From NCBI GenBank assembly GCA_902610115.1, contig CACLUK010000001.1, positions 62,001-126,000 on the forward strand: 64,000 bases of DNA, in the 5' to 3' direction. Of the stretch, positions 57,436-57,923 are shown one piece after another. The stretch comes from an uncultured Pelagibacteraceae bacterium (GTDB taxonomy: Bacteria > Pseudomonadota > Alphaproteobacteria > Pelagibacterales > Pelagibacteraceae). The position numbers and the translations under genes are program-made. Numbering within the stretch: position 1 is the stretch's first letter; every line of letters begins with the position of its first letter. Under the pieces are notes generated by a model, which saw nothing but the letters and a program-made list of their open reading frames with translations, made no database searches and had not been told where the DNA came from.

Positions 57436-57452
57436 TTTAGAATGATTATAAA
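57436..57452. promoter_or_regulatory. Irr/Fur-family operator between fabA and irr
   Basis: TTTAGAATGATTATAAA; inverted repeat TTTAGAA-N3-TTATAAA with one mismatch, 25-41 nt upstream of the irr GTG. Confidence 0.7.
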
Positions 57453-57476
57453 GTAGATCAAAAAACGAACTAAAAC

Positions 57477-57884
57477 GTGAAAAAAATAGACATTTTAAAA
57501 AAATTAAGATCTTCTGGGTTAAGACCGACTAAACAAAGAGTTGAAATAGCTAAATTTTTATTTGAAAGAGAAAAAACTTTCCATTTTACAGTCGAAAGTC
57601 TAAACAAACTTTTGAGCAAAAAATCGGCTTCTAAAATTGCGCTAGCTACAATTTATAATACCGTTCACGCATTTAAAACAGCCGGACATTTAAGTGAAGT
57701 TGAAGTAAGAGGAAACAAAACTTATTTTGATACTAATGTTTCAAACCATCACCATTTTTATGATAGCGATACTTCAGAATTAATAGACATCGATTCGAAT
57801 GATATAATCATTCAAAAAATTCCAAAAGCACCAAATGGTAAAAAAATTAAGAATGTTGAGGTATTTATAAATTTGAAAAATTGA
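57477..57884 (+). CDS. irr: Fur-family iron response regulator (Irr-like), GTG start
   Basis: SGLRPTKQRVEIAKFLF...ATIYNTVHAFKTAGHL...SNHHHFYDSDTSELIDI; divergent from fabA as in other Alphaproteobacteria. Confidence 0.85.
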   Translation: MKKIDILKKLRSSGLRPTKQRVEIAKFLFEREKTFHFTVESLNKLLSKKSASKIALATIYNTVHAFKTAGHLSEVEVRGNKTYFDTNVSNHHHFYDSDTSELIDIDSNDIIIQKIPKAPNGKKIKNVEVFINLKN

Positions 57885-57906
57885 CAGTTTGTCGCTTGTT
57901 TTTCAC

Positions 57907-57923
57907 TTTAGAATAATTATAAA
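57907..57923. promoter_or_regulatory. Irr/Fur-family operator upstream of katG
   Basis: TTTAGAATAATTATAAA; 16/17 identical to the 57436 site; 8 nt before the katG ATG. Confidence 0.7.

Follow-up and report, generated by a model that had tools for sequence, protein, structure and literature searches.

Irr-type boxes at irr and peroxide-scavenger genes of SAR11 bacteria suggest a PerR-like repressor

Genes, boxes and promoters at the irr-katG locus

The window, that is the whole stretch of 64,000 nucleotides of Pelagibacteraceae DNA analysed here, carries irr between a divergently oriented fabA gene and a katG gene on its own strand. The identities given to these genes in the initial annotation were confirmed by family searches (FabA; IrrA, 150 bits for a cut-off of 150; KatG, 1021 bits), and the gene order fabB-fabA, divergent irr and katG is conserved in the genus to which the window belongs. 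The features of the locus are:

56881-57384, minus strand: fabA, divergent neighbour, not clearly in the regulon (family search, comparison)
57403-57430, plus strand: predicted irr promoter, TTGATT-16-TATATT, from which transcription would begin at roughly the first base of box 1 (sequence, conserved pattern, inference)
57436-57452, plus strand: Irr-type box 1, located between fabA and irr where transcription of irr is predicted to start (sequence, conservation in most relatives)
57477-57884, plus strand: irr, encoding an IrrA/Fur-family repressor of 135 aa with no Cys and with H36, D85, H91, H93 and D104
57896-57923, plus strand: predicted katG promoter, TTGTTT-16-TATAAA, the -10 being the right half of box 2
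57907-57923, plus strand: Irr-type box 2 ahead of katG (sequence, conservation among relatives)
57932-60103, plus strand: katG, catalase-peroxidase of type A, the predicted regulated gene (family search, KatG tree)

The two 17-mers from which the study set out, TTTAGAATGATTATAAA at 57436-57452 and TTTAGAATAATTATAAA at 57907-57923, were found as described, both on the plus strand and identical at 16 of 17 positions, with a one-base difference. Their 3' flanks read GTAGA (box 1) and CTAGA (box 2), and a gap of 8 nt separates box 2 from the katG ATG at 57932. A search of the whole host genome (782 kb, 74.6% complete) yielded these two sites as the sole copies without mismatch and no copies with one mismatch. 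Sites with two mismatches elsewhere in this genome were mostly located within coding sequence, and the few intergenic ones had no tie to iron or peroxide genes; we treated them as background. At three mismatches, a scan of the window found 13 sites where 8.4 were expected, which is the background level. The boxes have the form of the Irr box or ICE, TTTAGAA-N3-TTCTAAA near target promoters, except that the right half in the window differs once, with an A for a C; the exact form is present at sister-family loci (e.g. L089 and G101).

The position of the boxes relative to the promoters may explain this deviation. The right half-site of the boxes at katG is TTATAAA instead of the canonical TTCTAAA. 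In 8 of 9 katG-B and in 29 of 29 katG-C loci a TTGAC-like -35 precedes this TATAAA by 15-17 bp, so that the half-site also serves as the -10. Canonical TTCTAAA boxes are instead placed 3-4 bp upstream of TTGAC. The katG-B and katG-C lineages have a strong TTGAC as their -35, whereas that of the window lineage is weak (TTGTTT, 16 bp); in the window, the right half of box 2 is likely also the -10. Transcription of katG in the window would then start at about the ATG and give a nearly leaderless message, which would account for both the asymmetry of the half-sites and the distance of 8 nt to the start codon. The idea that the katG box might block the ribosome was not supported by this arrangement, since the box is promoter DNA and its right half likely the -10.

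The window protein scored 150 bits against the NCBIfam model IrrA (NF045678), right at the edge of the curated cut-off of 150, and stayed far below the curated PerR models (PerRA, 64 bits of 200; PerRB, 61 of 250). A fold search recovered the Fur fold and did not tell Fur and PerR apart. Among solved structures, the Leptospira peroxide stress regulator (PDB 5nl9) matched best in sequence, and it ranked second in the fold search; the window protein differs from it in being assigned to Irr by the curated models. It contains no cysteine anywhere, hence neither a Cys-Pro haem motif nor a Cys4 structural zinc site; the haem motif is absent from some Irr proteins. The histidine cluster H91-H92-H93 and the non-haem metal ligands D85, D104 and H36 were invariant in 20 Irr proteins, so that the five residues of a PerR-type metal site are retained down to 44% identity. 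In the Irr protein of B. japonicum these five residues build a non-haem iron site at which peroxide oxidises a histidine (PMC4700492, from which the PerR numbering was also taken).

Box conservation, enzyme exchange and loss of irr

We identified irr in 91 of 121 relatives and added 80 further loci, nearly all from Pelagibacteraceae or Pelagibacterales (SAR11); many of the genomes compared are incomplete single-cell assemblies. The gene behind irr encodes a peroxide scavenger at 148 of the 154 irr loci of SAR11 relatives, namely katG-A (54), katG-B (11), katG-C (42) or rubrerythrin (41). The three KatG types form separate, clean clades with 48-71% identity between types. The rubrerythrins are single-domain proteins of 138-139 aa, a length insufficient for a rubredoxin domain; a rubrerythrin-like protein of Hydrogenobacter that also lacks this domain is a true peroxidase (PMC3317640). 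Adjacency of irr and rubrerythrin was seen in sister-family genomes and at one locus titled P. ubique (L137). Mapped on a tree of FabA+FabB the type of enzyme changed 17 times, and on a tree of Irr 12 times, with the box retained; these counts are approximate because they come from fast trees with many weak branches, and the well-supported branches alone force 7 changes for rubrerythrin.

With up to two mismatches, the box was present in 145 of the 148 spacers between irr and the scavenger gene, compared to 1.2% of shuffled spacers; a good box was missing from two katG-B loci and one katG-C locus. Many of the rubrerythrin and katG-C spacers carry two boxes, mostly spaced by 23 or 31-32 bp. The 17-mer is thus both conserved upstream of orthologues and above background frequency, which bears out the initial annotation in its reading of the site as an Irr-type operator. 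The predicted control of katG by Irr is likewise supported. Within the genus (81 genomes), an extended 21-mer with up to two mismatches was found in all 52 irr-bearing genomes and nearly always beside irr; the katG box itself hardly varies, being either AGTTTAGAATNATTATAAACT or ACTTTAGAATNATTATAAACT, whereas the spacer around it diverges.

The irr-fabA spacers gave a more varied picture. A box with up to two mismatches occurred in 108 of 148 (shuffles, 1-2%), being kept in most lineages and decayed in one whole subclade that retains both fabA and the katG box. Autoregulation of irr, as proposed initially, would therefore be common and not universal: it agrees with the data for most lineages and fails in this subclade. 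The suggested control of fabA found no support, given that the box has decayed next to an intact fabA and that a conserved fabA leader element persists in genomes without irr. Within the fabA-irr spacer, the sequence TTTTACTTGATTTA (window 57397-57410) is conserved deeper than the Irr box, and a trace of it, ATCAAGTAAA when read on the fabA strand, survives where irr has been lost. Because of this trace, the element probably belongs to fabA too, serving that gene as well as supplying the irr -35.

Among the 21 genomes of the genus in which irr was not detected, many of them incomplete, a true box was seen in one only, at a contig edge ahead of katG. In two of these genomes (G003 and G024) the irr-katG block has been deleted exactly, and fabA directly adjoins the hydroxylase-like gene found downstream of katG in the window. 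Their katG is located elsewhere, divergent from a gene for a LysR protein that resembles OxyR and has both redox cysteines; no Irr box was found at this oxyR-katG pair. An OxyR with the cysteine pair was present in only 2 of the 121 relatives, both without irr, and the two proteins are 87% identical; the replacement was probably a single evolutionary event. One of them (P0001) has the redox cysteines in a GHCL...FC context and OxyR as both its best family hit and its best solved-structure hits, although its score of 222.8 bits is below the curated family threshold of 329. The single LysR protein of the window genus was considered as an OxyR and rejected, having no cysteine and scoring as GcvA-like. 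In two other genomes (G005 and G061) irr was lost from between fabA and katG, and the box has decayed. The katG gene of G005 (L253) contains one in-frame TAA, which may point to decay of this copy, a wrongly placed start or an error in sequencing. A search for rubrerythrin in the irr-less genomes, run without a positive control, gave no hits.

Whole-genome scans of the genus placed 12 of the matches listed away from the locus, compared to 31 hits for the reversed-pattern control, and thus gave no excess of boxes elsewhere. Nearly all matches in the sister family were again at irr. The promoter-placed matches away from irr that we examined there lay ahead of Prx6-type and Prx5/AhpC-type peroxiredoxins, which belong to unrelated families, and, in one genome with a relocated irr, beside fabA; the three remaining places fall in coding sequence. 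All 13 Prx6-type genes and 7 of the 14 Prx5/AhpC-type genes of the sister family were preceded by a box, compared with 0 of 16 genes of a third, distant Prx family. Peroxiredoxins are iron-free, so that these targets are not explained by iron economy. No Irr boxes were found at iron-uptake, haem or Fe-S genes, with the reservation that weaker sites could escape the scan.

A predicted peroxide switch and rival readings

On the basis of sequence evidence, namely the observed boxes, their placement and conservation, the scavenger genes behind them, the metal-site residues and the joint loss of box and irr, we propose that Irr in SAR11 represses peroxide defence locally, in the manner of PerR or OxyR, to which we assign a probability of roughly 0.68. 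A PerR-like protein is suggested by the metal-site residues together with the scavenger targets and the replacement of irr by oxyR. Binding, repression, signal and signal chemistry would be as follows. An iron-loaded Irr dimer would sit on the palindrome TTTAGAAYNRTTMTAAA, which overlaps or abuts the -35/-10 of katG, rubrerythrin or, in some lineages, peroxiredoxins, and would thereby shut the promoter; the second box at the irr start would close a negative feedback loop in most lineages. Irr would be released when hydrogen peroxide reacts at its metal site of His and Asp residues (H36, D85, H91, H93 and D104), after which the scavenger and irr would be switched on together. The regulon as read from the boxes may comprise one to three loci. 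The resemblance to PerR, mentioned in passing in the initial annotation, proved the more informative half of its reading, while the iron-regulon half was weakened by a gene set of peroxide scavengers that includes iron-free peroxiredoxins.

Characterised Irr proteins have a role in iron and haem control, which counts against a peroxide switch, and the main rival is a classical low-iron repressor that senses iron through haem and represses the iron-rich KatG and the di-iron rubrerythrin when iron is scarce, thus saving iron. We consider this unlikely. The window protein does belong to the Irr family and both enzymes contain iron, and in Bradyrhizobium and Rhodobacter Irr directly targets rubrerythrin-like and mbfA/ccpA genes (PMC3413700), but the same box precedes iron-free peroxiredoxins, none turned up at iron or haem genes, the protein has no cysteine and hence no Cys-Pro haem motif, and irr was exchanged for oxyR. 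Moreover, Pelagibacter rbr rises under iron limitation instead of falling, by 1.57-fold (PMC2864753), a small response that is predicted by a PerR-type iron co-repressor and not by a classical low-iron Irr repressor; a counterpoint is that sister-family rbr also has a Fur-like palindrome ahead of it. A further point against a peroxide switch is that the Irr protein of R. sphaeroides did not bind the katE promoter, although deletion of irr raised katE about 6-fold (PMC3413700).

It is highly improbable that irr is a mere neighbour and that the boxes are bound by a different member of the Fur family, for instance the Fur encoded at 42416-42832. Three Fur-family proteins are encoded in the host genome and the boxes of this family look alike, but the boxes track irr in 52 of 52 irr-bearing genomes of the genus, are absent or decayed in irr-less genomes apart from the contig-edge case, and fit the Irr box and not the GATAAT-type Fur box. 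Activation of katG by Irr through the box also seems improbable. The Irr of Bradyrhizobium acts both positively and negatively through its own element, according to a reference given in PMC2864753, but the katG boxes span the -10 and the spacer, where a bound dimer would exclude the polymerase; the boxes just upstream of the -35 of sister-family rbr are less decisive in this respect.

The proposed peroxide repressor shares with the Irr/ICE regulon of Rhizobiales and Rhodobacterales (Bradyrhizobium Irr; R. sphaeroides Irr-mbfA/ccpA) an IrrA-family protein, an operator of the TTTAGAA-N3-TTCTAAA type and a rubrerythrin-like target, and the box of R. sphaeroides mbfA is located at the transcription start, as predicted in SAR11. 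It differs in a predicted regulon that spans one to three loci, with only peroxide scavengers and irr, in predicted direct targets that include catalase-peroxidase and peroxiredoxins, in a window protein devoid of cysteine and of the Cys-Pro haem motif, and in a right half-site that is often the -10. With PerR of Bacillus subtilis it has in common the Fur fold and the same five metal ligands and, as far as can be predicted, scavenger targets, a palindromic A/T-rich operator and autoregulation, whereas SAR11 Irr lacks the Cys4 zinc site, is an Irr by sequence and has a putative peroxide response. OxyR-katG likewise places a peroxide-sensing regulator beside katG, and stands as the replacement in two irr-less relatives, but OxyR is an unrelated LysR-family protein with a thiol switch.

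SAR11 bacteria dominate the surface oceans, where sunlight generates peroxide. In the literature searched, we found no peroxide regulator for SAR11, and Irr is a specific candidate. Possession of katG separates most offshore from coastal SAR11 genera (PMC12636525), and for Prochlorococcus the removal of peroxide by other microbes is of importance (PMC3033426). With slightly better than even odds, SAR11 Irr was once a broad iron/haem regulator that turned into a haem-independent H2O2 sensor, within a portable block of operator plus scavenger in which the enzyme is exchangeable and which is itself replaceable by oxyR-katG. The locus provides a natural case of a conserved operator that outlasts repeated exchange of the enzyme it controls, and bears on the functional relation of Irr and PerR, which share one metal site.

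Further conserved elements

Some additional elements were noted in and near these spacers. The sequence TGACAGTTTGTCGCTTG (window 57882-57898) overlaps the irr stop codon and holds the inverted repeat GACA-GTT-TGTC; it is nearly invariant in the katG-A lineage to about 78% Irr identity, with slight variation at 74%. An Asp/Arg-hydroxylase-like gene (60105-60746) follows katG in the window and in several relatives (L261 and L262) and still adjoins fabA where irr-katG has been deleted. A second, Fur-box-like palindrome is located just upstream of the Irr box in sister-family irr-rbr spacers (e.g. L090 and L091), as TTGATAATAGTTATCAA in L090, which suggests that rubrerythrin may be under dual Fur and Irr input in that family. 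A perfect palindrome, AGTTTATAATAATTATAAACT, occurs once, between groEL and a permease-like gene and just ahead of the latter (L185 1738-1758; G055:C8:23237), in a genome whose own katG box has decayed.
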